From Tribonema minus (taxonomy: Eukaryota; Sar; Xanthophyceae; Tribonematales; Tribonemataceae): a stretch of 64,000 nucleotides of DNA. Below, piece by piece: positions 7,391-46,215 of this stretch. The notes beneath the pieces are model-generated. The model was not told the DNA's origin. It worked only from the letters and a program-made list of their open reading frames with translations, and searched no databases. Positions within the stretch are counted from its first letter, which is position 1. Every line of letters starts with the position of its first letter. A program made the translations under genes and the position numbers. Location of the stretch: contig JAFCMP010000181.1 of the NCBI GenBank assembly GCA_017506865.1, forward strand, positions 1 through 64,000. Reading direction: 5' to 3'.

Positions 7391-7576
7391 GTTGTATCAT
7401 GAGCGACGTACAAAAAAACCTCGCCCCTAGCCAAATTGTTGGAGGAGAATCTCAAGAAGCGCGCAATTGAGGTTTGGAGCTCAAGTAAATGTTCCCAAAA
7501 CAATTCCCAGATCAGCGTTTTTCTCCACTGGCTGATTTACTATTGTCTCATTCACAACGCTCTCACAACGTGTGCC

Positions 7577-9740
7577 ATGAACTCAGGATGTGGTCGCTCA
7601 TTTGAGCTGTCGCAGGGTTTTGTTCAGAAGTTTGCTGATGTGCAGCCTGATTTCGGCTTCAATGGCCTTGGTGAGCTTGTTTTGCGGCGTACTTACTCCC
7701 GTGTGACGGAGACCGGGGTCAGAGAGCGCTGGTTCGAAACATGCCAGCGGGTTGTGGAAGGGACGTTCTCAATGCAACAAGCATGGATGGCACAGCAACG
7801 TCTACCGTGGGATGCGGGCAGAGCAAGGCTGGATGCAGAAGACATGTACAGGAGAATGTTTGAGATGAAGTTTTTGCCCCCAGGGCGAGGCCTGTGGGCA
7901 ATGGGATCGACTCTCACCGCCGACCGAGGATGTTTTGCTGCTTTGCACAACTGTTCCTTCGTCAGCACGCGAAACATTGCGCAATATGGCGCTTCCCCGT
8001 TCGCCATGGCGATGTCACAGAGCATGCTCGGCATCGGAGTCGGCTTCGATGTGACCGGCGCGGGAGACATTCTCATCAAGGCACCCGGTCCTGGTGCTGT
8101 GCACCTTGTCGCTGACTCCCGTGAGGGATGGGTACACTCCCTCGAGGTGCTCCTAGAAGCCTTTTTCCATGGTGCCACGATGCCCCAGTTTGACTACTCC
8201 GGAGTGCGTCCCGCTGGCACTGTCATCCGGGGCTTCGGCGGCAGCTCCCAGGGCCCGGATCCTCTGAAACAGCTGCATCGAGACGTCACCGTAACGCTCG
8301 GCGCGCTCATCGGTCGCCCAATCACAACGACAGCAATTGTCGACATCTTCAACCAGATCGGATGCTGCATCGTGAGTGGATCCGTCAGAAGGTGAGTTCC
8401 TGATCTATCTCCTGATACTTTTGACGCAACGAGCGCATACTGACTGCGCTTGCTTTTGCATGTGGTCTTTCAGGTCGGCAGAGATTGCAGTGGGCGATTA
8501 CGACGATGTGGAGTTCCTCGACCTCAAGGATAACACCAAGAATCCCCATCGCGCAGCCTTCTCTTGGGCCAGTAACAACTCCGTGAAATCTCCCATCGGG
8601 GCTGATTACGAGGGTATAGCGGAGAGGATGAGATTGAACGGGGAGCCTGGCATCATCTGGCTCGAGAACGCGAGGGAGTTCGGGCGCATGCGCGACGCGG
8701 CGAACGCGCTTGACTACCGCGTGTGCGGCTGCAACCCCTGTGTGAGTACAGCACCATATGCATAGTGTTGGCGCTGCATTGAAACTCCATGTGTGTGTTC
8801 TGACCCAGTCTTTGTGCCTTCACAGGCTGAGCAGACTCTGGAGGACTGTGAGTTGTGCTGCCTTGTGGAGGTGTTCCCTGCTCGAGCTGACGACTACGAC
8901 GACTTTGAGCGGACTCTGGAGTGCGCCCTTCTCTACGCTAAAACGGTCACCCTGGGAGCAACGGAGTGGCCAGAAGTCAATGAGGTGCTGCTGCGCAACA
9001 GACGCGTCGGATTGTCGTTGACCGGAATCGCGCAGTTCGTCGCCGCTCGCGACATTGAGTCACTGCGACAGTGGTGCGAAGAGGGATACAGAGTGGTCAG
9101 AAGCACGGATGCCAAGCTCTCGGAGAGGTTTGCAGTTCCCAGATCCATCAAGCTCACATCGGTGAAGCCGTCGGGAACCGTGTCCCTGTTGGCAGGGGCC
9201 ACGCCTGGGGTTCACTTCCCTGACAGTCGCTTTTACCTGCGCCGCGTGCGAATGGCGAAGGACTCCGATCTGCTTGCGCCCCTCGAGACCGCTGGCTATC
9301 CTATCGAGGACTGCGCCATGGGGACCAGGAACACGGTCGTCGTGTCTTTCCCAATTGATGCCGGAGAAGGCGTGAAGACGCTGGAGGATGCGACCATGTG
9401 GGAGCAGCTCGCGATGGCGGCCTTCATGCAGCGCTACTGGGCAGATAACGCCGTCAGCGTGACGGTCACCTTCAGCACGACGGAGTCAGCGCACATAGCG
9501 ACAGCACTCAACTTTTATCAGTATCAGCTCAAGGCTGTGTCCTTTCTGCCTCGCCTCGAAGGAGGTGTGTACAAGCAGATGCCGTACGAGAAGATGTCAG
9601 AGGCAGAGTTCAGAGAGTTGAGCGCAGAGATCACGGCAGTGGTTTTCGGCAAAAGGTCAACAACGCCTCACCAAGTGGCTGCGGAGGAGGAAGATTTCGG
9701 CGAGCAGTTCTGCTCAAGTGAGATATGCATGAGGCTCTAA
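7577..9740 (+). CDS. nrdJ: Adenosylcobalamin-dependent (class II) ribonucleoside-triphosphate reductase, three exons
   Basis: Joined exons 7577-8391, 8474-8741 and 8826-9740 give 665 residues, close to monomeric class II enzymes (about 740). It reduces ribonucleotides to deoxyribonucleotides using coenzyme B12. Visible landmarks are FLPPGRGLWAMGS, NCSFVST (first redox Cys), SGSVRRSAEIAVGD across intron 1, the radical-site motif NPCAEQTLED across intron 2, SVKPSGTVSLLAGATPGVHF, and a C-terminal Cys pair (FCSSEIC) that would re-reduce the active site. Both introns are GT-AG and keep the frame, and each exon junction falls inside a conserved motif, so the splicing is well supported. An independent B12 enzyme implies a host or medium supplying cobalamin. 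The start at 7577 is the first Met before the conserved region. Confidence 0.93.
8392..8473 (+). other. Spliceosomal-type intron 1 of the class II RNR
   Basis: 82 bp with GTGAGT at the donor and a pyrimidine-rich tract ending TTTCAG at the acceptor. Removal joins AG|G and restores the conserved VRRSAEI. Confidence 0.88.
8742..8825 (+). other. Spliceosomal-type intron 2 of the class II RNR
   Basis: 84 bp with GTGAGT at the donor and CTTCACAG at the acceptor. It lies between the Cys and Ala codons of the catalytic NPCAE motif. Confidence 0.9.
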
Positions 9741-11686: not shown

Positions 11687-12316
11687 ATGCAGCTGGCCTT
11701 CGTTCTCATGATCGCAGCAGGCGCACGTGTGTGCAATGCTGCCGAATGTGACCGCTTCTTTGACATAACCATGCCAGCCTGCGCTGCCGATGCGCAGTGT
11801 TCTGACTGCTTCGCAGCTCACACGCCGATTCCCGCTGCTGGGTTGCCCAAGACTTGTTATGAGTACATGGAACTCATATATCACCAGTTCCCAATTCCTG
11901 CGGAGGAGTGCAATGTGTACGATTCCGGCATATTCGGAAAAGTCATCCGCTGCGAGGCAAAGATGGCAACAGGAAATGCGCAGTGTTTGAGAGGCTCATC
12001 AAGGCCAACAGCAACGGCAAGGCCAACGATCGTTGAGCCTGTACCTACTGAAGTACACTCAACACTGCCACCAACGATCGTTGAGCCTGTACCTACTGAG
12101 GCACACTCAACACTGCCACCAACGATCTCTCCGCCCAGGCCGACGCCACACGGGTCCCCCACGCCGCAGATTACAGCACAGCCCACATTGCAGGGCACAG
12201 TACACGGCACAGCACGGGGCACAGCAGAGCCCACAACAGAGCAGAGCGCGGCCAGCGTTTTGAGAGCAGGCACCGTCGCTTCGGCTCTAATAATTGCTAT
12301 GGTGATGACTTTGTGA
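11687..12316 (+). CDS. Secreted Cys-rich mucin-like protein with a possible GPI-anchor signal
   Basis: 209 residues from the ATG at 11687. A signal peptide (MQLAFVLMIAAGARVCNA) leads into a compact Cys-rich domain with eight or more cysteines (residues about 18-105). A Pro/Thr-rich, probably O-glycosylated stalk follows and contains a 16-residue exact-length tandem repeat. The protein ends with a hydrophobic segment (SALIIAMVMTL) and no cytoplasmic tail, the layout of a GPI-anchor signal. It is most likely displayed on the host surface or virion membrane. The function of the Cys-rich head is unknown. Confidence 0.75.
   Translation: MQLAFVLMIAAGARVCNAAECDRFFDITMPACAADAQCSDCFAAHTPIPAAGLPKTCYEYMELIYHQFPIPAEECNVYDSGIFGKVIRCEAKMATGNAQCLRGSSRPTATARPTIVEPVPTEVHSTLPPTIVEPVPTEAHSTLPPTISPPRPTPHGSPTPQITAQPTLQGTVHGTARGTAEPTTEQSAASVLRAGTVASALIIAMVMTL
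12025..12120 (+). repeat. 48-bp tandem repeat in the mucin-like stalk
   Basis: Two units (12025-12072 and 12073-12120) differ by only a few bases and encode PTIVEPVPTE(V/A)HSTLP twice. Confidence 0.9.
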
Positions 12317-12372
12317 GGGAGCAGCACCATGAAAGCGGTAACAGACTAATACACACACACCGGGGGTTGTAT

Positions 12373-13863
12373 TTAAGCGACGCTCGGATCAAGTTCCTCG
12401 TTCACTCCGTTGTTCTCTGCCTCCAGTGCCGCTTTCTTCGCCCTCTTGCTCACCGGGAAGTGCGGCGATAACAGCCGGCACAGTGAAAAGTATGTGACGG
12501 CGTCATTCTCACCAGGCTTCAGGAGAGCTTTGAGCTTGTCGTCAAAAACGATCTGCTTGCCCTGCGTGAGCCCGTTCTCCTTGACATAGGCATTGAGCTT
12601 TGCGACTGCCTCAGTACGTGCTAGCAGCTGGCCACTGGGCAGGCCGAAGAACTCCAGTAACTCCTCTGACACCGGGCCGGGCGCAGCGATGCCGAACTTG
12701 GGGCGTTGTTCATCTGTAGCGGCTGCCTTGCGCTTTCCGCGCCGAGGACGTGCAGCTTTGTGCTTCAACAGGTTATCCGCAACCCAGGAGATGAGGCGAA
12801 GGTGCGCTGTGTCACGCCAGTCTTCGCCGGCGGCGTTGCTCGCGCGGTCAACGATGGCAGTCACGTCTTCGTCCCAGCTCTCTTCACCTATGTTGCGACG
12901 GAGCTTGGCAGCGATGGAGCGAAGAGCCACCTTCCCGTCCAGACCGATCGCGTCCTTTGCAATGGCGACAGCGCCTTCGCTGGACTTGAGAGGGGGAATC
13001 ACGAGGGTGGGAAGGCAGGGGCTGAACACCCACATGTCATCGTGAGCGTCCTCTCCGAACAGCTCTGCAATCTTGGCCTCAGCGGCGAGAGAGTCCTTCA
13101 CCTGCTGGAGGTAGGAGACGGGGCGGCGTGAAAACCACTGAGGCGGGCACCAAGGGGATGGGTGCCTTGCCTTGTTGGACTTCTTGGCCAAGTCGGGCCT
13201 GGCGACCACTTGGAAGGGTAGAAGTCTGCATTTGCTGTTTGCAGGAGGGCCGGTACCCCTCACCGCCATCCACAGCTGCTCGGAGCAGGAACGGGACAGC
13301 TGTGCGCCGGGGAGCTCATTTGCAATCCACCAGTCAGGGGCCGCAATGACCTTGACCCGCGGGCCACGTGGCTTCTTGGCTCCGTCTTCGAGCTGCGCAG
13401 GCGCAGGCGACGGCGTGTTGGATGGCTGCTCGGCGATGCTCACGACCGCAGCGACAGAGTGAAACGTGAATCCCCACTTCTCGATCAGAGAGGCTGCGAT
13501 GCCAGCAGTTGTTGTGCTGCACCAGAGGAACAGCGCAGCGTCGTCAGCACTCATCGCCGAGATGGGCAGCGACGCGAGCTGCTCCTCGGACAGAGCGTGC
13601 CAGGGCGTGTTGATGTAGAGACAGTCAAACTTGGGGGTGGACTGGACAGACGCGTGTATGGCGGCAATTGCTGCATCCACCTCCTCTGATGTCACAGCGG
13701 GCACGGCAACTGGTGCCGGGTCGGCCTCCGCGGGCGGTGTGGCACTCTCAGTGTCGGGACCTGCGACTTCGGCGGCAGGGACGTCCGGGTCGACGGCACC
13801 AGGGCCTGATACAGTGGAGTCCGCGATGGCGGCATCGTTGAGATTGATTGTGGGTGTGTCCAT
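12373..13863 (-). CDS. MT-A70-like (N6-adenine methyltransferase family) protein fused to a SWIB domain
   Basis: 496 residues from the ATG at 13863. After a Pro/Ala-rich acidic leader, residues about 78-310 form an MT-A70 core: FDCLYINTPW at the position of the DPPW catalytic motif, ALFLWCSTTTA, EKWGFTFHSV, SEQLWMAVRG and a C-terminal HPSPWCPPQWF segment. The DPPW motif reads NTPW here, so methyl transfer is uncertain; compare METTL14, a catalytically silent partner of METTL3. Residues about 397-470 (LLEFFGLPSGQLLARTEAV ... IVFDDKLKALL ... LCRLLSPHF) match the SWIB/MDM2 fold found in chromatin-remodelling subunits. A basic region (RPRRGKRKA) separates the two. The fusion suggests targeting of an RNA or DNA adenine methylation function to chromatin, which is inference. 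Confidence 0.85.
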   Translation of the reverse strand: MDTPTINLNDAAIADSTVSGPGAVDPDVPAAEVAGPDTESATPPAEADPAPVAVPAVTSEEVDAAIAAIHASVQSTPKFDCLYINTPWHALSEEQLASLPISAMSADDAALFLWCSTTTAGIAASLIEKWGFTFHSVAAVVSIAEQPSNTPSPAPAQLEDGAKKPRGPRVKVIAAPDWWIANELPGAQLSRSCSEQLWMAVRGTGPPANSKCRLLPFQVVARPDLAKKSNKARHPSPWCPPQWFSRRPVSYLQQVKDSLAAEAKIAELFGEDAHDDMWVFSPCLPTLVIPPLKSSEGAVAIAKDAIGLDGKVALRSIAAKLRRNIGEESWDEDVTAIVDRASNAAGEDWRDTAHLRLISWVADNLLKHKAARPRRGKRKAAATDEQRPKFGIAAPGPVSEELLEFFGLPSGQLLARTEAVAKLNAYVKENGLTQGKQIVFDDKLKALLKPGENDAVTYFSLCRLLSPHFPVSKRAKKAALEAENNGVNEELDPSVA

Positions 13864-13895
13864 TCTGCGTGTGTGAGAGAAGGTTGTGAAGGTAC

Positions 13896-13909
13896 CAACA
13901 TTTTTACAG
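13896..13909 (-). promoter_or_regulatory. Start-proximal A-rich motif (TGTAAAAATGTTG)
   Basis: On the minus strand, about 35 bp before the MT-A70/SWIB start. It matches motifs at 1463, 39863, 44857 and 27651. Confidence 0.5.
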
Positions 13910-14015
13910 CTTTCCCAGGAGCGCATTCCGCCCACCATTTCCCAATTTTTAAGTGCACGGTACGTGAACTGGGAGACAACCCTTGTCGTTGTGTGTCAGT
14001 CACTACTAGCACGCC

Positions 14016-14345
14016 ATGTCCATGACACTGGCAGACGATGCCGAAGCACATTCAGAGGACATCGCTGCGCCGCGAGGCGAGGAGGAGGAAGCTCTACCTG
14101 CACCGTCATTTCATGAGAGTGTCGCCATGTATCTCCAAGGGCAAGTGCTGGGGAAGTCGACACAGCTCGCAAAGCTCGGAGAGAGGGCCCAACAGCTCAC
14201 AGCGGAGATACAGCAGCGCAACGCTTCTCTCAATGAAGTGCGCTCACAACAGCTTCACGTGCAGGGAGCACTGGCGGCAGTCCGAGATCTGGCTACCCGT
14301 GTAGAACAAATGCACGTGTCAGCGTCAACTCCTGTGGAGGAGTGA
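14016..14345 (+). CDS. Small coiled-coil protein, 109 aa
   Basis: An acidic N-terminus (residues 5-30) precedes a heptad-rich helix (residues about 45-100; LAKLGERAQQLTAEIQQRNASL). No family is recognised. Its last 91 bp overlap the 3' end of the convergent lipase gene. Confidence 0.6.
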   Translation: MSMTLADDAEAHSEDIAAPRGEEEEALPAPSFHESVAMYLQGQVLGKSTQLAKLGERAQQLTAEIQQRNASLNEVRSQQLHVQGALAAVRDLATRVEQMHVSASTPVEE

Positions 14346-15130
14346 TTGAAGTTGCACCTCCAATGACAATTCTCTTCTAAGCACGTTTCGCTGTCTTCAT
14401 AGTCTTGCACTGCTGCGATGTACTTCCGCATGCTATGAAAGTGAAGATCAAGCAGGCTGGGTACATCGCGTTTTGGCTCAGCAGTGCCGATGTGAGTGAC
14501 AACGCAGGTCTCCGTGTAGCCTGGAAAGCACTTGCAAACTGGGTCTGCGCCGTTCATGAACGTCATCGCTGTTGGCAGATGGACTTGGAATGCATCGCGA
14601 AATGCGCTGTCGCCAACTTTTGGCGATGCGAATCCGATGAAACTCACTCGACCGGGGTATGCGATGGCTGCCTCGAGAGCACCGAAAGCGCTGATCGCCG
14701 CGCCACTACTGTGGCCTGTGAAGACAAGTGCATTGCCATGTGCGCTCATGTGCTCCGTGATGACTTCAGTCACGAGGGGCCGAAGTGCGCGATACTGTTT
14801 GAGCATGCCGCTGTGCGCTTTGACACTGGCACCAGCTTCTGCAAATTGCACCTTATCGAGCTCCAAATTGCGCATCCAGTCAACCAAACTGTCAGTTCCC
14901 CTGACAGCCAGTACCGCTTCGCGGCCTTGGGGTATGAAGTACGCTTGGGTGTCATTTTTCGCATCACCGAAGAACATGGGAGGTCGAGTTGCATCGACGA
15001 GAGCTTTCCAAATGTCAGGCTCCGAGTACGTTTGCGGGAGCTCGCCACGACCTACGGCAAAGGCTCTATTCACCTCAGGTAGCGCGCGATAAGACAGGTA
15101 TGCAAGACGGGCCAGGGCGAGGAGTCGCAT
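14255..15130 (-). CDS. Class 3 (triacylglycerol) lipase
   Basis: 291 residues from the ATG at 15130, an alpha/beta hydrolase. Ser151 lies in the nucleophile elbow GHSSG. The oxyanion segment AVLAVRGTDSLVDWMRNL is the lipase class 3 signature. NGADPVCKCFPG carries the likely catalytic Asp, and LLDLHFHSM the His. The first 20 residues are hydrophobic and could act as a signal or anchor. A Cys-rich tail after residue 250 is extra to the family core. It probably hydrolyses host membrane or storage lipids during infection or release. It overlaps the 14016 gene at its 3' end. Confidence 0.88.
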   Translation of the reverse strand: MRLLALARLAYLSYRALPEVNRAFAVGRGELPQTYSEPDIWKALVDATRPPMFFGDAKNDTQAYFIPQGREAVLAVRGTDSLVDWMRNLELDKVQFAEAGASVKAHSGMLKQYRALRPLVTEVITEHMSAHGNALVFTGHSSGAAISAFGALEAAIAYPGRVSFIGFASPKVGDSAFRDAFQVHLPTAMTFMNGADPVCKCFPGYTETCVVTHIGTAEPKRDVPSLLDLHFHSMRKYIAAVQDYEDSETCLEENCHWRCNFNHSSTGVDADTCICSTRVARSRTAASAPCT

Positions 15131-15157
15131 TTCCCTCGAGTGTACAATTTTTTTTCG

Positions 15158-15200
15158 GTTCGACCGACCTTCGGTCGGGCCTGCCCTTCGGGCAGTCGGC
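15158..15200. repeat. Twin-hairpin palindromic element, copy 1
   Basis: Two adjacent hairpins, CCGACCTTCGGTCGG then GCCTGCCCTTCGGGCAG, between the lipase and AN1 genes. A near-identical copy lies inside the coding sequence at 29120-29158. It could double as a terminator for the minus-strand AN1 gene. Confidence 0.7.
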
Positions 15201-15203
15201 ACG

Positions 15204-15488
15204 TCATCGCCACCTCGACACCCACTCGCGCTTGCCTTCACGACTAACGACAGCATCCTTGTACGGTAAGGATCTCCACTCATACTTGCATTCGTGAGAC
15301 TCGGCATGTCTATGTCTGGGGCAGAAGAAATATCCACATCTGCACTGAATTCGAGCTGTCAGCTCGATTCTGCGTCGGCACACGGCGCAGCGCTCGCTGA
15401 TGTGCTGTGGTAAGGGCGGTTTTGGTACATGCGGCGGCGGTTCTTGTGGCATTCCTTTGATATGAAGCTTTCTGCAGACCACACCCAT
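15204..15488 (-). CDS. AN1-type zinc finger protein
   Basis: 94 residues from the ATG at 15488. The ligands C34, C37, C49, C51, C56, H59, H65 and C67 give the exact AN1 spacing C-x2-C-x11-C-x-C-x4-C-x2-H-x5-H-x-C. A Pro-rich linker precedes it. AN1 proteins (stress-associated proteins, ZFAND family) act with ubiquitin and the proteasome. There is no A20 domain. It shares a divergent promoter region with the 15600 gene. Confidence 0.9.
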   Translation of the reverse strand: MGVVCRKLHIKGMPQEPPPHVPKPPLPQHISERCAVCRRRIELTARIQCRCGYFFCPRHRHAESHECKYEWRSLPYKDAVVSREGKREWVSRWR

Positions 15489-15514
15489 TCTCCTACTCAA
15501 GCAAACACAAAAAG

Positions 15515-15560
15515 TTCAACTGGGACTTCTGCTAAAAATTCCCAGTTTGCCTCAACCGGG
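15515..15560. promoter_or_regulatory. Distal CAACTGGGA / TCCCAGTTTG element between divergent genes
   Basis: CAACTGGGACTTC, an A-rich spacer, TTCCCAGTTTG and then CAACCGGG. It closely matches 24967-25042 and shares its right half with 29530-29550. Confidence 0.55.
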
Positions 15561-15599
15561 ATGTTGGTGTCCTGAAGGAGTTGCTTCACACCCAGCACC

Positions 15600-16076
15600 A
15601 TGCACCTCACACTGCGGGATAAGCTGCTGCGAGACTGCAGGGACAGTGAGGTGGAGAGTGACGGAGAGACGGTGCGCGATGAAGACGAGGACCAGCTGGA
15701 GCCCCAAGGCACTCCGGGTTCGATCAAAGATTTCATCACATCTGACAGAGACGAGGATACCCCGCAGCAGCCCAAGAGACGCCGCTCCTTCAAATTTCAA
15801 CTCGACACGTCATCGGACGAGGATGATTTCATCGCGCCGCCCGCAAATGCCTCCAAGCGCCGCGTGGACAGGGTGTGCGCAAGGGTCACAAAAAAGTCCA
15901 AGCCGCTCGTCCAAGCACACGACGACGGGTATAAGATTGTGGGGGTGAGGACAATGCCGTGCGGCCGGTGCAACTGCTCTGTCCCCTTAACGTTCCACGC
16001 CAAGGCTGACTGGCCGAGAGACATGTTTTGGCTGCGATCGACTTGCACACTGTGCAAGACGATCACCTCGCTTTAA
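15600..16076 (+). CDS. Acidic protein with a C-terminal zinc-ribbon-like motif, 158 aa
   Basis: Residues 1-90 are highly acidic with a basic patch (PKRRRS) and look disordered. The last 45 residues hold paired cysteines (MPCGRCNCS ... STCTLCK) in zinc-ribbon spacing. This layout suggests a transcription or replication accessory factor, but no family is recognised. Confidence 0.65.
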   Translation: MHLTLRDKLLRDCRDSEVESDGETVRDEDEDQLEPQGTPGSIKDFITSDRDEDTPQQPKRRRSFKFQLDTSSDEDDFIAPPANASKRRVDRVCARVTKKSKPLVQAHDDGYKIVGVRTMPCGRCNCSVPLTFHAKADWPRDMFWLRSTCTLCKTITSL

Positions 16077-16440
16077 ATGCAAGCCTGTTTTCAATCATGG
16101 ACGACCGCCTCATATTTGCATTTGTTGCTTCAACATCCGTAGGATAGCATAGTCTAACTGGTAGTTGTGTTAGCACTCTCCACTCACACACCACCCTCAC
16201 CGCTATGACTTGCAGACAACATCACTCAACCACCTCATCACCATAACTAAGCCACCGCACAATGCGCCACTTGGAAACTCTCATCGCACAGGTTGCAGGT
16301 TCGATTCCCTCGTACGTCGATAGAGAAATTTAATTCCGTACTAAGTGTGCAAAGTTTAGAAGATAGGTAGTGTAGATAATTTTTTCAACACTACATCCGT
16401 GTCGCGGCTCAGGTAGCATGCAAAGGTGAACAGGACGACG
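16077..16440. other. Intergenic region with a tRNA-like 3' segment
   Basis: About 360 bp without a supported gene. It contains a TPsiC-like GGTTCGATTCC at about 16301-16311 and a CTAAC/GTTAG hairpin near 16155-16175, but a full cloverleaf cannot be built. An AT-rich stretch occupies 16330-16390. The fragment might be a decayed or split tRNA. Confidence 0.3.
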
Positions 16441-17772
16441 ATGGCACATTGCAGACAACAAATATTTTTTCACGGAGAGGGTGATTGTGCAATGCCACCT
16501 GATGCCGATGTGCTGGACACGGTTCAAGGCGTAACAAAGTCCGCCATTCGGCGACTGTGCCGCCGCGGCGGTGTGAAGCGCATCAGTGGCCTGATGTATG
16601 AGGAGGTTCGCGGTGTCGTTACACTTTTTTTGAAGGACGTACTGCATGATACGGTTTTATACACTGAGAATGCGCGCCGCAAGACAGTGTCGGCTCTAGA
16701 TGTGGTGTATGCCCTAAAGCGACGAGGGCATCATCTATACGGTTTTGACCATGAGCAGATGCCAGTTTCAAAACAGAGGCGCAGAGCGGGCATAGGGCCA
16801 CCTCCGTTGCCCTCGCTGCCAGCTCCGTTACCGCCGCTGCCACCTCCACCGCCCCCTGCACATCCTCCCACGCCCGGATCCTTGCGCTCTGGCGCTCGGG
16901 ACGCTTTGCGAGCAGGAGACCTGCCCGCCGCGACGGTGTTGACGCGGCCGCGAATCAGGCGTCAAGCGGAAGCAACAAGTTTGGCTCACACCGAAAGACA
17001 CACCTTCATGTACCAGGCGTTGAGGCACCTGCACGTCATGCACGGCTTTCCATTGCCTGACAATCTGGTGTACAGAATTTCTGTCAAACAAGGCGGCAAT
17101 CGCCCATCAAGATGTACATTGCAGGCTGCGTCTGCAGACGGCCATGTCACTGATCGAGAATTACAGGTGTTTCTTGACCGCCTTTCCGCCGCACGCACTT
17201 GGCTGGCGGTATCGCTGGGTCTGTACAACCGAGGAACACAGTCGGGTCATGCAAATTTGATTGTCTTGGATGGGCGCTCCAAGAACGCCATGGTGTATGA
17301 GCCTCACGGCGCTGTGTCTGCAAGTTACACCCACTGTCGCCTTGTGTTACAGCAGCGTATGCAACAACTGGGTTGGACTTGCGACAATGTGTCCGTGCGC
17401 TACGTACCGGGCGATGGGCCGCAAACTCTGGAGACCACGGACCAAATCACAACTGACGGCATGGTGCAGACGCCAGGCGGATTCTGCCAGAGTTGGAGTC
17501 TGTGGTTTGCTCACCTGACCCTCCTGCGGTGGCGGGATCTAGGCAACCGGCAGATGAAGTTCATAATGGAAGAGGATGTGCAGGAGCGTATCGAGGCTAT
17601 CGGCGCAGTGGGTAACGCACCGACATATGACGTCGAGGATGATGACAGAGACGAGGATGAAGTCGAAATGGACCGTCTGTCGATGGCACTGCGCCGCTTT
17701 ATCCTCGGCTTTGCGATACGGCTAACGAAGCTCATGCGCCCGCACTGGGACGGAAGCGCAATCGATTTCTGA
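16441..17772 (+). CDS. Histone H4 fused to a predicted Ulp1-like cysteine protease domain
   Basis: 443 residues from the ATG at 16441, or 426 from 16492. Residues about 25-102 are an unmistakable histone H4 fold: [20 protein letters not shown], then [12 protein letters not shown], then [20 protein letters not shown] and LYGF. The basic acetylatable H4 tail is missing. A Pro-rich linker (residues about 120-150) leads to a globular domain with a Cys-protease arrangement: His270 in SGHAN, Glu287 in YEPHG and Cys349 in [11 protein letters not shown]. This order (His, acid, Cys with preceding Gly-Gly) recalls Ulp1-like proteases and an uncharacterised family common in large DNA viruses. An acidic patch and a basic helix end the protein. 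The H4 part could bring the protease to nucleosomes or viral chromatin. The H4 call is very strong and the protease call moderate. Confidence 0.92.
16461..16473 (+). promoter_or_regulatory. AT-rich motif AATATTTTTTCAC
   Basis: The reverse complement of the start-proximal A-rich motif, 19 bp before the ATG at 16492. If it is a promoter, 16492 is the true start of the H4 fusion rather than 16441. Confidence 0.35.
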
Positions 17773-17836
17773 TTTGCCCATGACCATGTGCACACTTGTC
17801 ATCATTTTTTTGTGTGTCACGGTATATACCAAAAAC

Positions 17837-18022
17837 ATGGTCAAAGCAAAGACTGCGAAGAAGACCTCCAAGCGAGCGCCGACTGCTTTTCAAAAATACA
17901 TGAAGACCAACCTGCCGAAATTCGCCTCGGACATGGGGTTCGTGAAGGGGAACCCGAAGGCCAGCTCCTGCCAGTACCGTGACGTGTTTGCGGCATGTGC
18001 CAAGTCGTGGAAGAAGAATTAG
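17837..18022 (+). CDS. Small basic HMG/YABBY-like DNA-binding protein, 61 aa
   Basis: From the ATG at 17837. A Lys-rich tail (VKAKTAKKTSKR) precedes PTAFQKYMKTNLPKF ... YRDVFAACAKSWKK, which follows the HMG-box/YABBY pattern (P-x-A-[FY]-x-x-[FY]-[MI]-K, then FxxAAKxW). It is likely an abundant DNA-bending or packaging protein. It lies just downstream of the H4 fusion on the same strand. Confidence 0.7.
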   Translation: MVKAKTAKKTSKRAPTAFQKYMKTNLPKFASDMGFVKGNPKASSCQYRDVFAACAKSWKKN

Positions 18023-18071
18023 ACGCAAACTCAAAATGAGACATAATTTTCTCTCTGGTCCTTAAGCAAAG

Positions 18072-18584
18072 ATGTCGCTGCCTCTAGACAAAGTTGTTTT
18101 TTGTATCGCCTCTCAAGTGTTTGATGCAGTCACTCCACTTGAACAGCAGACGAAGATCAGCGCTGAGCAGGTCGAGTACCAGCTGCAGAAAGTGCGAGCT
18201 GCGGTCAACAGCACCGACGCCCTCAAGTATTTGACTTGCAGCAATGGCATCTATGCACAACAGATTACGGCGGCGATTGCTGCATGCATGAAAGACGTGC
18301 TCGCAGATCGCGCAATCACCCTCGCTGATGTGCCGACGCTGATGAGGTGTGTGCGCACGATCGCTGAGAGTGTCAGTCACGTCAACTCCAAGAGAGACGC
18401 GGCTGTGCAGATCGGGGAGCACAGCATAATACCACTGCTAAAGATGATCGTGCTGCTGGTCGCCCAGATGATACTCCCGGCAGCGCAGTTTGAGATTGCC
18501 AACGGCATCTTCTGCATATCTTTTGACCTCCTTGCAACAAGAGTTGAACCATTGCTGAAGGCACACGGGTGCTGGTGCATGTGA
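18072..18584 (+). CDS. Hypothetical helical protein, 170 aa
   Basis: Mostly alpha-helical with a hydrophobic segment near residues 120-145 (SIIPLLKMIVLLVAQMILPAA) that could be a membrane helix or buried core. No family is recognised. The stop is followed within 10 bp by AATAAA, a likely polyadenylation signal. Confidence 0.6.
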   Translation: MSLPLDKVVFCIASQVFDAVTPLEQQTKISAEQVEYQLQKVRAAVNSTDALKYLTCSNGIYAQQITAAIAACMKDVLADRAITLADVPTLMRCVRTIAESVSHVNSKRDAAVQIGEHSIIPLLKMIVLLVAQMILPAAQFEIANGIFCISFDLLATRVEPLLKAHGCWCM

Positions 18585-18588
18585 CATG

Positions 18589-18594
18589 AATAAA
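18589..18594 (+). terminator. AATAAA polyadenylation signal
   Basis: AATAAA directly after the 18584 stop codon and followed by TG-rich sequence, as in eukaryotic 3' end signals. Confidence 0.5.
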
Positions 18595-18702
18595 CTGTGT
18601 GTGTGATGCACGCTGGTGCGCAACGACTGTTCACAGCGTCTGTGACCTCCGAGGAAGAATTGAATGGAATTGTGAATGAGCTAAGGGCGAAATAATATTG
18701 TA

Positions 18703-19680
18703 ATGATACAAAGGCGCATGGCAGTCACACAGCTTCTCTGTCCTAGCTGCCCAGAGACATTTGCGCATCGAAACGGTCTGCGGTCTCACAGGGTCACCAA
18801 CCATGCGTACGTCTTTGATCCTCGCATACCTCATGTCACCATCTCGCCCACACCCAGCGACGAGGACCTAGAGCACGCTGCTGGATTTCTCGAAGGAGAT
18901 GCCTGCATCAGGGTTGGTAGAACCTCACCTTCAATCATCGCAGTGCAGACCGCCAAGAAAAAGGATCTGCTCGATGAGCTGCGCAGGATATTCGGAGTTG
19001 GGGTGATAGAGAAAACCGGCGACGAGACGGAGACCAGAACAGAAAAGTGGCAATGGCGGTGTAGTGCTGCAGAGAGCATCGCCATCGCCAACCTCATACG
19101 GGACCGTCTTATACAGAAGGCGGCGGTGGCCCGTGTCATGTCGAAGATGGAACCTGTTGTCGGATTCGGGAGAAACACGCAGTACAACCGCGACCGTATT
19201 GTCGAGTATAACACGATCAAGCGCGAGTTCATATCACTCGATGACCTTGACATCATAGCGCGTATGAAGGGCACCTCTGTCAAGTACACAGACCTTGTCA
19301 ACAGCGGCCTTGAGTTTCGTGAGATGAGCGTGCATTACGTTGCAGGGTTCTTTGAGGCTGAGGGTTCAATGACACTTGCACACAACAAGAGGAGCAGAGA
19401 TGATGTCCATAACCTGGTAGTGCAGATTGCACAGAAAGATATGTACATCCTGTACCTCATCCTGGCATACCTGAAGGTAGGTATAGTCAACACGGATGGT
19501 ACTGGAGGGGCGACGTATAAAGCTAATGGTAGCTATGGCATCCAGGTGCTTAAGCACCTACGGCCATTTGTCAGGAGTGCAGCAATCAAAGAGCAGATTC
19601 GCATCATTCTTGAAGAAGGTGTGAACGCCAACACAAAGCTCAAGCTCGTTCAGTACAAGGCAAAGCGTCGTGCTCCCTAG
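18703..19680 (+). CDS. Free-standing LAGLIDADG homing endonuclease with an N-terminal C2H2 zinc finger
   Basis: 325 residues. Two LAGLIDADG helices appear as AAGFLEGDACI (residue about 60) and VAGFFEAEGSM (about 215), with the acidic catalytic residues present in both, so a single chain could form the active pseudo-dimer. Residues 8-30 (CPSCPETFAHRNGLRSHRVTNH) form a C2H2 zinc finger, an added DNA-binding module. No host intron or intein flanks the gene. It is therefore a free-standing element in an intergenic position. Such enzymes copy themselves into alleles lacking them. Confidence 0.9.
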   Translation: MIQRRMAVTQLLCPSCPETFAHRNGLRSHRVTNHAYVFDPRIPHVTISPTPSDEDLEHAAGFLEGDACIRVGRTSPSIIAVQTAKKKDLLDELRRIFGVGVIEKTGDETETRTEKWQWRCSAAESIAIANLIRDRLIQKAAVARVMSKMEPVVGFGRNTQYNRDRIVEYNTIKREFISLDDLDIIARMKGTSVKYTDLVNSGLEFREMSVHYVAGFFEAEGSMTLAHNKRSRDDVHNLVVQIAQKDMYILYLILAYLKVGIVNTDGTGGATYKANGSYGIQVLKHLRPFVRSAAIKEQIRIILEEGVNANTKLKLVQYKAKRRAP

Positions 19681-19762
19681 TGACTGCAGGGCTTGCAAAA
19701 TAGATGGAAATGTTCAAGTGTCACTGTATTAACACACTGCTTTACTTCTCCATCCCTCAGCA

Positions 19763-21352
19763 TCATTTCCAGAAAACCTGAAGCGAAACCCATACGTTGA
19801 ATGTTTCCACAAGAAGCGAAGGTATGAAGTTGTGGACAGGAAACCCCTGTGCCATTCGCCATGCACATCCTGAGTACAGCGCCAGCATCTGGGTCACCGT
19901 GATATGCAATAACATCGCCATTGCAAAGTTGTAGCGCTTGTTTTTTGTCCTGCCAGCTGAGCCCCCTGTTGGCTGCCACGGCATTTGTTCTCCGGCTACC
20001 TTGTCGTAGAGTGCTATGAGGTGCGCACTGTATTGCAGCCAGCGGATGCGCACAGATTCTAGTCCAAAATGTTGCGTGTTCCATACCCTCATCGCGCAGA
20101 ACGGGAACAGCAAGGAAGGAATGGCGAAGAAGGTGTTATACCACAACACGAGATGTGGACGTGTGTACACCAGCACAATGGCAGGCATTGCGTTCACAAA
20201 GATGGATAGCGCCGTCGCGCAATAGTAGAGACCACCAGTCGCGTAGCAACACTTCTGAGCAACTGTCAAATTGGACCGCCAGAACTCTGCTGAAGTAGTC
20301 AGCATCAAGCTTCCAGTTGCCCATCTATGATTCTGAGTGAAAAATGCCTTCTTATCATCCGGACAGGTCCCCATGGACAATGGCAGAGGCAGGTACTTTA
20401 CCCGCCATCCAGCGTCGGTCAAAAGGAAGCCCGTGTAAACATCCTCCGAGAACCCTACATTTGCAGTACCTCCGAGCGGGTCGAGTGCGGTCCGGCGGTA
20501 CACCGCACAACTCCCGACGCAAATCGTTGCGTTGAATCTTTGCCTGTTCTGCTGGATAACGCGATAAAATAATTCCTGCACGCTACCCGCCCCTCTTTCG
20601 ACCCAGGTCTGCATGGGCTTCACAGTAAAATACTGAGGCGTTTGTAGTATGCAGATGTCTGGATATGTGAAGTAGGGGACCGTGTGCTCTAGAAAGTCTT
20701 CGCGTGGACAAAAGTCTGCATCAAAAATCACTATGACATCGCCATGTGTATGACCGAACGCGTGCCTCAAGTTGCCTGCTTTCTTCATCCTTCCGGGATC
20801 TGGGCGCCTCATGTAGTGGAACTGGTACTGCTTCGCCAATGCCTCAATAGATTTCGGCCTGGGACCATCATCGAGCACGTGCACATTCAACTTTAGCGGA
20901 TGCCACTTCAACTTAGCTACATGGTTGAAGGTGTTCTGGATAACCTCGATCGGTTCACCGCACGAAGGCAGGAAAATGTCAACTGTGGGGGTATAATCTG
21001 TGCACTCTGCTAGCAACTTCTGATGGTCTGCGAAATTGCAATCCTTGCCCCAGACTCCTACAGCAAAGTATGATATGAAGAGGTACATGGTTATGAGTAG
21101 CGTCACTGGAGCAAAAAAAGGTTCCACAGACGTAAACAACCAAAGCCCTGTGCACAGCGGGACGCAGGACACGATGCCGAAGCCGATGATGAATGCTCGC
21201 TTTGTGTCTACATATGACATCATTTGCACATCAGTAGGGGCGGATGGGAGCACTGTCGTGTCACCACTATTTTCACGGTGAATGAGGGCGAGCCCCTCTT
21301 CCAGCGTCGACGAAGCGCTAACCAGGTATGCCCAGGACCGCACAAGTCGCAT
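19763..21352 (-). CDS. Cellulose-synthase-like family 2 glycosyltransferase
   Basis: 529 residues from the ATG at 21352. The processive GT2 signature is complete: DD at 161-162 (VLDDG), DAD at 211-213, SED at 302-304 in place of the usual TED, and QNHRW at 340-344 for the QxxRW motif. Hydrophobic segments at about 53-100 and from 355 onward provide two N-terminal and three or more C-terminal membrane helices. It resembles bacterial BcsA and eukaryotic cellulose synthases but has no PilZ domain. It should make a beta-linked glucan or a hyaluronan-like polymer across a membrane. A GH5 glycosidase is encoded 9 kb away. Cellulose synthases often work with an endoglucanase. Confidence 0.9.
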   Translation of the reverse strand: MRLVRSWAYLVSASSTLEEGLALIHRENSGDTTVLPSAPTDVQMMSYVDTKRAFIIGFGIVSCVPLCTGLWLFTSVEPFFAPVTLLITMYLFISYFAVGVWGKDCNFADHQKLLAECTDYTPTVDIFLPSCGEPIEVIQNTFNHVAKLKWHPLKLNVHVLDDGPRPKSIEALAKQYQFHYMRRPDPGRMKKAGNLRHAFGHTHGDVIVIFDADFCPREDFLEHTVPYFTYPDICILQTPQYFTVKPMQTWVERGAGSVQELFYRVIQQNRQRFNATICVGSCAVYRRTALDPLGGTANVGFSEDVYTGFLLTDAGWRVKYLPLPLSMGTCPDDKKAFFTQNHRWATGSLMLTTSAEFWRSNLTVAQKCCYATGGLYYCATALSIFVNAMPAIVLVYTRPHLVLWYNTFFAIPSLLFPFCAMRVWNTQHFGLESVRIRWLQYSAHLIALYDKVAGEQMPWQPTGGSAGRTKNKRYNFAMAMLLHITVTQMLALYSGCAWRMAQGFPVHNFIPSLLVETFNVWVSLQVFWK

Positions 21353-21523
21353 CAGCAGTGTTGGCTTTAGCACTTCGCTGACATTTTATGGAGCGGCATA
21401 CACACGCCAAGCCTGGCAATCAAGACTCTGAGTGCATTTGTGTGCATGCAGGCCTTCTACAAGTGACGGTGATGGCGAGCGCGCTCCTGCGCCGCGCGAT
21501 AAAGTGTACGGTACAAAGCAAAC

Positions 21524-22051
21524 ATGAGAATTATCGGGCTCGTTGGCACCAAAGGTGCCGGGAAGGACACATTTGCCGACGCACTGGGCCTGCCCAAGTA
21601 CTCGTTTGCGGCTCCCATAAAGGAGGCGTGCTGCGCAATCTTCATGTTGGATGATGAAGCATTTGAGGATCGACGCCTGAAGGAGACCGTCGATCCGCGG
21701 TGGGGCATCTCTCCCCGCTCCATGCTTCAGACGCTGGGCACAGAATGTGTGCGCGGCCATTTCGGCGACAATCATTGGATCAGGCACATGAGCATGCGGC
21801 TGGATCAGTGCGACGAGGACGAGGTAGTCATCACAGATGTTCGTTTTCGTGACGAGGCAGATTTTGTGAGAGAGCGTGGAGGTGAACTCATCCAAATTGT
21901 TCGACCCGCACATGCCACTGTGGACGCACATTCTTCTGAGACTGCCATTTACAACATTCCATGCGACACGATCGTCCTGAACAACGGCACGAAGGAGCAG
22001 TTATGCAAGCAGGCGACTAGCTTCCGCAAAAAAAATATGTCCAGCATGTAA
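21524..22051 (+). CDS. Deoxynucleoside monophosphate kinase
   Basis: 175 residues. A P-loop GTKGAGKDT occupies residues 8-16. The fold resembles the dNMP kinases of phage T4 and large DNA viruses: PKYSFAAPIKEA, RSMLQTLGTECVR and VITDVRFRDEADFV (the acidic helix and substrate-binding segment). It would phosphorylate dNMPs produced from salvaged DNA, complementing the RNR. It is the first gene of a same-strand cluster running to 23596. Confidence 0.9.
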   Translation: MRIIGLVGTKGAGKDTFADALGLPKYSFAAPIKEACCAIFMLDDEAFEDRRLKETVDPRWGISPRSMLQTLGTECVRGHFGDNHWIRHMSMRLDQCDEDEVVITDVRFRDEADFVRERGGELIQIVRPAHATVDAHSSETAIYNIPCDTIVLNNGTKEQLCKQATSFRKKNMSSM

Positions 22052-22054
22052 AGT

Positions 22055-22396
22055 ATGCACTGTGCAGCACTGATTGCAATAAGTGCCGTGCTGGTGTTTG
22101 CTGCCGTCGCTTGTTTTGATTCTAAGACGCCTGAGCTCACAGGTTTTCGCGACAGAGGCACCGTGGTTGTCGTCGTCGCTTCGTGGTGCAGCTTCTGTCA
22201 TCGGCTGGAGCCAGTGCTCGAGCAATTGAGGGCGGACGTCGATCTCAACGTGTACACTCTTGATGTTGACGACGCGAACGCGAAGAAATGGGTAGATGCC
22301 CTCAACGTTCAAGGTTTTCCGACTGTTTATGTCAAAGGGGCAGTGTATGAAGGCCCGAGGACCTTCGAAGCCATCAAGGCTGCGTCGCTGAAATAA
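22055..22396 (+). CDS. Thioredoxin with an N-terminal signal or anchor
   Basis: 113 residues. A hydrophobic N-terminus (ALIAISAVLVFAAVAC) is followed by a thioredoxin domain with the active site ASWCSFCHRLEP and the cis-Pro motif GFPTVYVKG. It probably acts in the secretory path or an organelle as a thiol oxidoreductase. It starts 3 bp after the dNMP kinase and overlaps the next gene by one base (TAATG). Confidence 0.9.
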   Translation: MHCAALIAISAVLVFAAVACFDSKTPELTGFRDRGTVVVVVASWCSFCHRLEPVLEQLRADVDLNVYTLDVDDANAKKWVDALNVQGFPTVYVKGAVYEGPRTFEAIKAASLK

Positions 22397-22701
22397 TGTT
22401 GTTTGATCCTGAAATGAAATTCGAAGCGTGGTATGTCTCGTTCACAGCTGTGGCGTCCAAGGAGGTGGTCACGCCTTTTGGTGTTGCCTACGGGAGCTTT
22501 GCCAGCGTCTGCCGGGCCGATGAAGAAGTGCAGGTCATGACGAGAGTGCAGTTCGTGCAGGCGATGAGGGGGGTTGGCCATGAGCTCCGTGCAACAGAAA
22601 ACAATGAGCTGGTATACACTGGATTGGTGACGGATGCCGTGCTCTTTGCTGTTGCAATGCCCGCTGCGTCAAGCGATGATGAGGACGATGACAATCCTTG
22701 A
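22396..22701 (+). CDS. Hypothetical protein with an acidic tail, 101 aa
   Basis: The start overlaps the thioredoxin stop by one base. The protein is a beta-rich body ending in SSDDEDDDNP. No family is recognised. Confidence 0.6.
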   Translation: MLFDPEMKFEAWYVSFTAVASKEVVTPFGVAYGSFASVCRADEEVQVMTRVQFVQAMRGVGHELRATENNELVYTGLVTDAVLFAVAMPAASSDDEDDDNP

Positions 22702-22735
22702 CATATTGAAATTATGTAGCACAACGTCAGCACAC

Positions 22736-23596
22736 ATGTTTGCCGTCGACGCATCCGCGAAGCTCGTGTCGGTGTATGATGTCGTTCGGCACTTGAAGCC
22801 CGGTAAGAGCGTCAATTATCCTCGCACGACCATCGCCAGCATCAGAAATGGCAACGGCGACATTGACAGTGGCATTGTCGAAAGAAACATAGACGGCGTC
22901 AAACACCTGTGCGCGCCACTCGAAGTCGTGTCGCGCATCGTATCAAAAGTACCGAAAACGACTCAGGAGGAAAAAGAGGCGACCCTGACGGCTGTGACGG
23001 CACAGCTGGTCATCGAGCCCGAAGATCAGACAGGACAGCCTCCTGTTGTGCAAGCGACTCTTGCTGAAGCGGCAGTCATGGGACCCGACATCAGCGGGGC
23101 CGCAGGTGCTTGGAATCATGTTGTGCAACTGGCGAACCAATGCGCAGCTGTTGCCATGAACGTGCTGGAGCGGCGCATGCAAGCGGACGAAGCAAACTCT
23201 GCGGCAGAGGCAGAATGTATACGTGTCGCTACGGACATGGCAAGGGTGAAGAGGAGCAAGGAATATCTTCACGGATTGATGCTGGCTCGCAGAGAAGGAT
23301 TTGAAACAGGAAGGGTGTTGCGGGAAACCAGGGGTGTGGAGCATGCAGACAAACCGTTCCCTACACACTTGCTTCCGCCACACTTTCGAGGGAAGAACAT
23401 TCGATTGGAGGACTACTTTGACGGCGAGGAATTACAGATGGTGAAACGAAGGATGGCAGAGCTGTATCTGGAGACGTATGGAGTGCAGAGCGACGATGGC
23501 TACTTCGAGACAGACGAGGATTTGTTGAACATGGCCATCGCACCACCGCGCAAGACACGGAAGACGGTCGTTTACAAACCGCCTGAGCCCGCGTAG
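22736..23596 (+). CDS. Protein with a weak Bro-N/KilA-N-like N-terminus, 286 aa
   Basis: Start taken at 22736, after an AT-rich gap. An in-frame ATG at 22688 would overlap the previous gene. Residues 1-70 (VSVYDVVRHLKPGKSVNY ... KHLCAPLEVVSRIV) are reminiscent of the Bro-N/KilA-N or MSV199 DNA-binding domains of large DNA viruses, but the match is weak. A coiled helical middle (residues 130-230) and an acidic C-terminus follow. Confidence 0.65.
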   Translation: MFAVDASAKLVSVYDVVRHLKPGKSVNYPRTTIASIRNGNGDIDSGIVERNIDGVKHLCAPLEVVSRIVSKVPKTTQEEKEATLTAVTAQLVIEPEDQTGQPPVVQATLAEAAVMGPDISGAAGAWNHVVQLANQCAAVAMNVLERRMQADEANSAAEAECIRVATDMARVKRSKEYLHGLMLARREGFETGRVLRETRGVEHADKPFPTHLLPPHFRGKNIRLEDYFDGEELQMVKRRMAELYLETYGVQSDDGYFETDEDLLNMAIAPPRKTRKTVVYKPPEPA

Positions 23597-23630
23597 AGCT
23601 CATAGGTTCACGAATGCTCGCCATCGTAAC

Positions 23631-24302
23631 TCAGCAGATCTCGTCGACAATGCCCTTGTGCATACACTCCGATGCCGTCATCCACACGTCATGCTTCATG
23701 AGTTCGTCCAGGTCATCAGAGGCCATGCGCGTGTGCATCAGGTACACATTTTTCACTAGTTTGTCGATGGTTCGCATGCCATCGACTCTATCCCCGACTT
23801 GCGCGAGGGTGCCTTCGGCTCCGCCGCTCATCTGGTGGATGAGCATGAGCGAGTTCGGATGCGCGTATCTCACCGCACAAACGACAGTCATGAGCGTGGC
23901 AGCGGACGCGGCAAAGCCCTCCACGAAGGAGTGAACCGGCACAGGACTTCTGCAGATCGTGTCAACGATGGCGAGCGCAGGCATGAGTGCCCCACCGCTG
24001 CTCTGCACATGCAGTTCGACAGGTGGAGGGGAGAGAAGGCCGAATGCCATTTGGCAGAGGCGGCTCTCGAGTGCAGCCTCTTCGAGAGCCGTGCGCAGCA
24101 TGCTGCAGGTCTCACTCGTCACGTCTGTCGTGAACCAGATCTTGTTCGCCTGTCGCTCTACAGGCAGCACATCACTGGATGCGGGCTTCGAGCACATGGT
24201 GCCGGCGGTGATTGCAGCTGCGCCATGCATAAGCTGGGATCTTGACAGGCTCATAAAGGCAAATGTGCGCGACAGCAGCAGAAGGATGGCGAATAGGCGC
24301 AT
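23631..24302 (-). CDS. clpP: ClpP-like serine protease with a signal peptide
   Basis: 223 residues from the ATG at 24302. The ClpP core runs from about residue 48: LHVQSSGGALMPALAIVD, then EGFAASAATL with nucleophile Ser133, SLMLIHQMSGG with His156, and MKHDVWMTASECMHKGIVDEI with the acidic third residue. All three catalytic residues are present. The N-terminus MRLFAILLLLSRTFAFMSLSRSQ is a signal peptide followed by Phe and a Ser/Ala-rich basic stretch. This is the layout of a bipartite presequence for complex plastids, where ClpP normally works. No ClpC or ClpX ATPase is in the window, so a host partner is likely. Confidence 0.9.
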   Translation of the reverse strand: MRLFAILLLLSRTFAFMSLSRSQLMHGAAAITAGTMCSKPASSDVLPVERQANKIWFTTDVTSETCSMLRTALEEAALESRLCQMAFGLLSPPPVELHVQSSGGALMPALAIVDTICRSPVPVHSFVEGFAASAATLMTVVCAVRYAHPNSLMLIHQMSGGAEGTLAQVGDRVDGMRTIDKLVKNVYLMHTRMASDDLDELMKHDVWMTASECMHKGIVDEIC

Positions 24303-39958: not shown

Positions 39959-41029
39959 ATGTACAAGACACTCGATCTGTTCAGCGGCATCGGAGGTCTG
40001 ACTTATGCACTCGCCGGCGTTGCCGAACCAGTAGCCTACTGCGATGTGGATCCTATCTGTCGCGCTGCTCTCACCGCTCTCTTTGGGAAAGGGCTGCTGC
40101 CACGTGCACCCATTCTTGATGATGTGAGGACGCTGAGGAGGGGACACATTGATGCAGAGGTGGACATGGTGACCGGAGGCTTTCCATGCGTTGGCTTGAG
40201 CCCGCTGGGAAATAGGAAGGGGTTGCAGAACGAGCAGAGTGCGCTCTTCTACGAGCTGGCGAGAGTCGCCCAGGAGTTCGCTCCCGCCTTCGTTTTCATG
40301 GAAAATGTGCCTGAGGTGACATCGGTTCTCAAGGCGGTTCACGAGAAGATGAACGAGTTGGGGTACGACCTACGCTGGTGCTGTCTGTCGGCAGAGGCCG
40401 TCGGCGCGCTTCACGTGCGCAAACGCTGGTTCTGCCTCGCCACCAAGCGTGGTGATTCACGTGTCCTCGATCGAGACATGCTAGTCGATGGGGGTGTGGC
40501 GATGCCGGACTGGAACGAAGCGCACGAGCCGGAGCGGCTTGAGCCTGACTCCAAGCAGCGCAAGCAACGCTTGGCACTGCTGGGCAATTCTGTCGTTCCG
40601 CGGTGCGTCCGGGCTGCCTTTTTCCACTTGTGGAATGCGAAGGACGAGGGGACGCCGTGTGCGCAGTACATGATGCACGGCTGCACCCGCGGCGCTCAAG
40701 TGCTCTCCTGCGGCCCTCCGCCGATCAACAGCCCTCCTCCTCCGCTGAATCTGGTCTTCGATCCTTCGGCATTCTCAACTGGAAAGCCGCCGAGCGTTCA
40801 GTGCAAGAGGGAGACGGTGACCGACACTGCAGTCAGGCGGTCAAAGTGGTCGACGCTACGCCACGGCATGACCGGGGCGTGTAATGTGCTGACGAAGCGC
40901 AGCATGCGCGACTTACCCACTCAAGTGCGCTTTGAGACGGGCACGACCGGAGATCGGTCGTGGCAGATGTCGGCTGCCTTCGGCGAATATCTTTTGGGCT
41001 TTCCCCTCGGTTGGACGGAGCTGATCTGA
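39959..41029 (+). CDS. DNA (cytosine-5) methyltransferase
   Basis: 356 residues. The motifs are: I DLFSGIGG (6-13), IV GGFPC with catalytic Cys77, VI ENV (115-117), VIII RKRWF (about 154-158) and X LLGNSVVP (208-214). A segment ending YLLGFPLGWTEL, which in most enzymes precedes motif X, here follows it at the C-terminus. The order is therefore rearranged, with the probable target-recognition region (residues 230-345) placed last. It would methylate viral DNA at a specific cytosine. No matching restriction endonuclease is visible nearby. Confidence 0.9.
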   Translation: MYKTLDLFSGIGGLTYALAGVAEPVAYCDVDPICRAALTALFGKGLLPRAPILDDVRTLRRGHIDAEVDMVTGGFPCVGLSPLGNRKGLQNEQSALFYELARVAQEFAPAFVFMENVPEVTSVLKAVHEKMNELGYDLRWCCLSAEAVGALHVRKRWFCLATKRGDSRVLDRDMLVDGGVAMPDWNEAHEPERLEPDSKQRKQRLALLGNSVVPRCVRAAFFHLWNAKDEGTPCAQYMMHGCTRGAQVLSCGPPPINSPPPPLNLVFDPSAFSTGKPPSVQCKRETVTDTAVRRSKWSTLRHGMTGACNVLTKRSMRDLPTQVRFETGTTGDRSWQMSAAFGEYLLGFPLGWTELI

Positions 41030-46003: not shown

Positions 46004-46215
46004 GTTCACAATGCCTTGATATAATAAATGCGCTGCCGACTGGCGAGCACATCGGGCAACAGCGATCACACCGCCGCATCACCATCAGCAGCATCATGAC
46101 ATCACACGTTTTGGACCCCATCGACATCTTGCGTATCTGACATGCCTCGTGAACTGTAATGATCACCATTATTATCTCCACCCTGTCTCAACCGAGTCTG
46201 CGTTGCACACACACC

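Follow-up and report, generated by a model that had tools for sequence, protein, structure and literature searches.

A histone H4 joined to a predicted CE-clan cysteine protease in a putative endogenous giant-virus element of Tribonema minus

The analyzed stretch of DNA (hereafter the window, 64,000 nucleotides) corresponds to the first 64 kb of contig C181 (JAFCMP010000181.1; 107,672 bases) of the alga Tribonema minus. It contains an open reading frame (ORF) whose 443-residue product combines a histone H4 core with a large C-terminal domain. The frame begins with an ATG at 16441, ends with a TGA stop (17770-17772) and has no internal stops, while an in-frame TAG is located 27 bases 5′ of the ATG. 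The distinguished features, an anatomy of which we are highly confident, are as follows:

16441-17772, plus strand: full ORF, 443 residues, comprising H4 core, proline-rich linker and CE-clan-like protease domain
16510-16746, plus strand: histone H4 core, residues 24-102, identified by phmmer and by identity to ordinary H4
16747-16965, plus strand: linker, residues 103-175, including a run of prolines (about 16801-16875)
16966-17769, plus strand: C-terminal domain, residues 176-443, with a CE-clan cysteine-protease fold predicted by structure comparison
17248-17250, plus strand: His270, predicted catalytic His, invariant in 4/4 copies, paired with the C48 catalytic His by hhalign
17299-17301, plus strand: Glu287, predicted catalytic acid, invariant in 4/4 copies, paired with the C48 Asp by hhalign
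17467-17469, plus strand: Gln343, predicted oxyanion-hole Gln, invariant in 4/4 copies, six residues N-terminal of Cys349
17485-17487, plus strand: Cys349, predicted nucleophile, invariant in 4/4 copies, forming the N-terminal end of a long predicted helix

A preliminary description of this DNA had recognized an H4 fold without its tail, joined to a C-terminal domain by a Pro-rich linker. Sequence searching bears out the H4 assignment, since residues 24-102 matched the H4 chains of solved nucleosomes (phmmer, E 4.3e-31) and 54 of 77 aligned residues are identical to the ordinary H4 of the same genome. The lysine-rich N-terminal tail is indeed missing from the sequence, while the C-terminal LYGF and most residues common to ordinary H4 are retained. 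The linker was likewise found as described, its proline run lying within the single ORF, and the linkers of loci L002 and L003 are also proline-rich.

No Pfam match to residues 176-443 was obtained in a scan listing matches at E<=10, the filters of which discard most matches above about 0.1. On sequence grounds, membership of the Peptidase C48 family (Ulp1/SENP, PF02902) was rejected: its Pfam profile did not match the domain, and hhalign gave only a weak alignment to C48 (probability 1.1, E 0.047). Known members of the CE clan are Ulp1/SENP (C48), adenain, poxvirus I7 and ASFV pS273R, and the usual role of such enzymes is either the removal of SUMO, ubiquitin or NEDD8 or virion maturation. 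Two structure models were compared with known folds, both of low confidence (pLDDT 41 and 48). By our own count, all 50 VIA rows listed for the low-confidence domain model, and 44 of the 50 listed for the full-length single-sequence model, also of low confidence, belong to or resemble the CE clan. The domain model has the MPXV core protease and ASFV pS273R among its top matches, and deubiquitinases and SUMO proteases score equal to these viral maturation enzymes. Among predicted viral structures, its best matches are mostly uncharacterized giant-virus proteins.

The spacings H-x16-E and Q-x5-C are kept in all four copies of the domain in this genome; we take this order and spacing to be that of the CE clan, and liken Glu287, as the presumed acid, to that of adenovirus proteinase. 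Helix 174-193 of the domain model begins at Cys349. Shuffling of the alignment columns reproduced the spacing pattern, with all four residues invariant, 213 times in 200,000, a figure to be read with the pattern having been set post hoc on a sequence already seen. The domain had earlier been called Ulp1-like with His, Glu and Cys as its active-site residues. Fold comparison did return CE-clan cysteine proteases, although from low-confidence models, and together with the invariant residues this sustains the claim at clan level, but not membership of C48. As the C48 model is unmatched and the closest viral structures are mostly uncharacterized, the term "Ulp1-like" is valid at clan level only. 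The models thus support the C-terminal domain as a predicted CE-clan cysteine protease.

The protease domain is present in four copies in the genome, every one downstream of an H4. The copy on contig C223 is 98% identical to the window protein over its whole length, and that on C445, located approximately 1.5 kb from a match to the late transcription factor VLTF3 (C445:1033823-1034146), is 67% identical; both form one open frame. The C490 copy (56% identity) has the same order of halves with a stop between them. Because one open frame recurs at these identities on two other contigs, C223 and C445, the fusion is not an accident of assembly. Comparison of the window and C223 copies revealed 29 synonymous and 8 nonsynonymous differences in the protease half (dN/dS 0.08; Fisher 1.6e-12), 8 and 2 in the linker (Fisher 0.0013), and 3 and 0 in the H4 core (Fisher 0.022). 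This pair is under strong purifying selection, and the counts in all parts indicate that the two copies diverged while the whole protein was maintained. The length and proline content of the linker are also maintained between copies. This selection perhaps acted in the virus, before integration.

The fusion had been regarded as a gene of a free virus genome; this view had to be abandoned, as the gene sits in an element inside a eukaryote-sized genome (158 Mb in 554 contigs). The major capsid protein family has 10 matches in this genome and VLTF3 has eight, with none in 14 control genomes for either. Family B DNA polymerase (26 matches, probably including cellular ones) and D5_N (16 matches) are also matched in five and three of the 14 controls, respectively. 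Some Nucleocytoviricota genes are close to fusion loci. On C181 itself, capsid, VLTF3 and D5_N matches are all absent, and a family B polymerase match (C181:71144-72325), of the family that also matches five of 14 controls, lies just beyond the window. From these sequence matches the integrated elements of the genome were assigned to putative Nucleocytoviricota. A mirusvirus origin was considered, mirusviruses being described as carriers of histones (PMC12768974), but seems less likely, as the capsid and VLTF3 matches favour Nucleocytoviricota.

Downstream of the fusion, the window contains a further gene of this setting:

44882-46069, minus strand: predicted telomere resolvase ResT/TelK (Pfam PF16684, E 1.5e-24)

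A 99% identical copy of this gene is located at C223:710208. Phaeoviruses have been described as carrying telomere resolvases and integrating (PMC13236599). A search with the resolvase protein gave 54 places in the genome; at 12 of these the match covers most of the protein or is broken into two pieces. Contigs C181 and C223 agree in the order and orientation of three anchors: the fusion (at 16441 on C181 and 679441 on C223), the resolvase (44885 and 710208) and a polymerase match (71144 and 730838). The ORFs adjoining the fusion also correspond between the two contigs. A DNA search with positions 12000-24000 of the window missed even the window itself and its C223 counterpart, and therefore provides no measure of collinearity. 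In our view, the window represents one copy of a probable endogenous giant-virus element that occurs several times in the genome.

Several other predicted genes surround the fusion. Matches close to it include a UCH ubiquitin hydrolase (3965-7390, minus strand), SWIB plus MT-A70 (12373-13938, minus), a LAGLIDADG endonuclease (18703-19680, plus) and a C5 cytosine methylase (39959-41029, plus). A ribonucleotide reductase of B12-dependent type is split over two plus-strand ORFs (7436-8395 and 8793-9740). The right-hand part of the window is occupied by two plus-strand ORFs with many FG-GAP repeats and fibronectin-like parts: one of 4276 residues (46159-58989), and one of at least 1624 residues that leaves the window (59127-63998).

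H4-like sequences were identified at 25 places in the genome. Nine of these belong to fusions: the window type accounts for four, H4-C48 for three, and H4 with a linker and a weak kinase match for two. The C48 domain is recognized by Pfam in L013 (E 7.8e-14) and L014 (E 2.5e-18), and the C48 part of the third H4-C48 locus, L015, is 88% identical to that of L014. A 608-residue frame on C223 (L066:61-1884, minus strand) similarly combines an H3 with a Ulp1-type C48 domain; its ATG follows a stop by 9 bases, and 111 of 128 residues of its H3 part are identical to the ordinary H3 of the genome. Thus, at least four of the 20 C48 matches in the genome share a frame with a histone, these four being the frames that were read.

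Loci L005 (C9:39246) and L006 (C223:472486) encode H4, a proline-rich linker and a weak protein-kinase match. The match in L006, the one of the two that was scanned, has E 0.0064, below the Pfam cut-off, and these loci are considered a possible H4-kinase fusion. The full H4 tail is present in the L013, L005 and L006 fusions. The H4 parts differ in how close they are to ordinary H4, from 54/77 identical residues (window) to 97/102 (L006), which suggests more than one capture of H4. In an H4 tree, 5 of 48 inner branches are supported, too few to tell one capture from several, and the clustering of the fusion groups does not exceed that of shuffled labels. Two further histone loci were observed: L072 (C223:809575), where an H3 is followed by a long glycine-rich stretch and adjoins a VLTF3 match (C223:808952-809449), and L081 (C112:1202477), an H2B-H2A doublet in one 269-residue frame.

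It had been proposed to look for the same fusion in other large-virus genomes. In IMG/VR, queries with the whole protein, the domain, the domain alignment, an H4-C48 protein and an H4-C48 alignment gave no confirmed relatives, while two H4-C48 fusions were found among metagenomic proteins. These two, P0007 and P0012, were the ones with C48 among the precomputed domains of all 49 metagenomic H4 matches, and our own Pfam scans of 20 of the 49 detected C48 in the same two. Eight others (P0004, P0005, P0008, P0010, P0026, P0028, P0032 and P0047) have H4 plus extra sequence without a convincing Pfam match; all eight share with the window H4 a Cys in R[LM]CRRGG, where the ordinary H4 of the Tribonema genome has Ala. 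GNAT-like halves noted by eye in P0005, P0006, P0010, P0013 and P0031 were discarded, as Pfam found none, and Pfam likewise gave no support to OTU-like motifs noted in P0028 and the ORF beside L003.

For the protease domain of the window, a single-sequence query of the databases gave no relatives at E<=0.001 among 809 candidates, and the alignment of the four copies gave none at E<=1 among 6505. The coding pattern G-H-A-N-x14-E-P-H-G occurred at five loci, all in short frames and judged to be chance. A looser pattern gave three loci, two of which were read as chance. The third, L057, is an 829-residue ORF with a HAN...EPHG motif and, outside the search pattern, GGYCAMWSLFF. Its HMM score of 21.7 bits (compared with at most 5.5 in 2000 shuffles) is inflated, because the locus was picked by a pattern containing part of the motif. 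L057 is the sole distant relative found, and it lacks a Gln at the Gln343-Cys349 spacing. A scan with an L057-led alignment gave matches confined to its own contig, and seven other ORFs of L057 have no Pfam match at E<=0.01.

On balance, we lean towards the gene encoding a histone-tethered cysteine protease of an endogenized giant virus, which would remove ubiquitin-like marks on virus-occupied DNA. In favour of this are the H4 core, the four invariant residues of catalytic type, the CE-clan matches of both models, the purifying selection on the protease half, and the C48 fusions to H4 and H3 here and to H4 in metagenomic proteins. The H4 part may deliver the protease to nucleosomes, as previously suggested. 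It would pair with H3 and be loaded into nucleosomes by histone chaperones or through viral packaging; incorporation beside H3 is plausible because LYGF and most residues of ordinary H4 are kept. The proline-rich linker would hold the protease outside the nucleosome particle, since it exits from the C-terminus of H4. From there the enzyme could act on histones and on neighbouring chromatin proteins of virus-occupied DNA, freeing them of ubiquitin, SUMO or a modifier of that kind. This might happen while the DNA replicates in the nucleus, on reactivation or in the virion core, and would keep viral DNA from being silenced or flagged. SUMOylation of histones, H4 included, has been associated with repression, among other reported roles (PMC8216275). 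Against such a tethered enzyme stand the low confidence of both models, the stop that splits one of the four copies, the unmatched C48 profile and the lack in L057 of a Gln at the same spacing. A broader idea, to which we give somewhat less than even chances, is that the genome reflects a general viral strategy of enzyme-loaded histones, in which a set of H4 and H3 proteins includes several with a C-terminal enzyme, namely CE-clan proteases of two kinds and possibly a kinase. If so, laying down viral chromatin would itself install its editing enzymes, and the histone would be a delivery vehicle, beyond a packaging or signalling protein.

The main rival, which we consider rather unlikely, is a virion maturation protease anchored to the packaged genome, modelled on poxvirus I7, ASFV pS273R and adenovirus proteinase: H4 would carry the enzyme into the particle, where it would cleave viral core precursors. 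That CE-clan enzymes mature the virions of other viruses, the ASFV enzyme being described as required for this step (PMC11915834), counts against removal of marks, and the MPXV and ASFV proteases stand among the top matches of the low-confidence domain model. A SUMO-1-specific cysteine protease is also reported in the virion proteome of PkV RF02 (PMC11953307). However, the fold is indecisive, given the equal scores of deubiquitinases and SUMO proteases, and the presence of several different histone-protease fusions in one genome is more in keeping with a group of chromatin enzymes than with a single maturation enzyme.

The tethered protease might instead cut histone tails or host chromatin proteins rather than modifiers. 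The predicted CE-clan fold would allow this, and the fusion, lacking the H4 tail in the window, would escape its own activity; yet the L013 and L006 fusions keep the full tail and we know of no CE-clan enzyme that clips histones, which makes this reading improbable. Still less probable is that no fusion protein is made, the gene being a relic in decay or its frame giving two transcripts. The position in an integrated element and the interruption of one of four copies would fit such decay, but three intact copies hold one frame, the layout recurs with other protease domains and in metagenomic proteins, and dN/dS is about 0.08 in the close pair, although this value may reflect selection in the virus before integration. 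Least probable, in our estimate, is a self-releasing precursor in which the protease would cut its own linker to yield H4 and protease in equal amounts. The linker is long and exposed, and the halves are in separate frames in the C490 copy; the conserved length and proline content of the linker, and the purifying selection on it, argue against this reading.

The closest analogy to the favoured mark-removing enzyme is found in melbournevirus, where the core protein MEL_206 has a CE-clan deubiquitinase-like structure resembling Chlamydia DUB1. This protein forms cross-links with the two histone doublets, MEL_368 and MEL_369, and di-glycine remnants are present on these doublets (PMC13365592). 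In both systems a CE-clan deubiquitinase-like protein would contact virus-encoded histones, but the melbournevirus partners are separate cross-linking proteins, whereas here they form one polypeptide, and the two enzymes are likened by structure class. Partners that are separate in one virus and fused in another are a classic sign of joint function; if MEL_206 and the window domain are such counterparts, this would favour removal of marks. The Tribonema gene would thus provide a concrete test of the melbournevirus hint that ubiquitinated viral histones are touched by a deubiquitinase-like core protein.

Marseilleviruses, medusaviruses and, with an H4, bracoviruses also have virus-borne histones, and here the H4 is near-canonical. 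Described fusions of viral histones join histone to histone, and the consulted portions of two viral histone studies deal with single histones and histone-histone fusions (PMC9145170, PMC11222145), whereas the partner here is enzyme-like. No histone-protease fusion was found in the accessible portions of the open-licence literature, a body of work with most subscription papers and bioRxiv outside it. With Ulp1/SENP (C48), adenain, I7 and pS273R the window domain shares a predicted fold and the order and spacing of His, acid, Gln and Cys; it differs from them in having no C48 profile match and in being fused to a histone.

Chromatin enzymes are normally recruited and are not part of the nucleosome. 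A cellular precedent for the general layout is macroH2A. It resembles the fusion in combining a core histone, a linker and a large non-histone domain, but it is a cellular gene with H2A in place of H4 or H3 and a ligand-binding macro domain in place of a protease. An H4 or H3 that contains its own enzyme would depart markedly from this precedent and would be a natural design for aiming enzymes at nucleosomes, and such H4- and H3-protease fusions would give a virus direct control of the marks on its own or on host chromatin.
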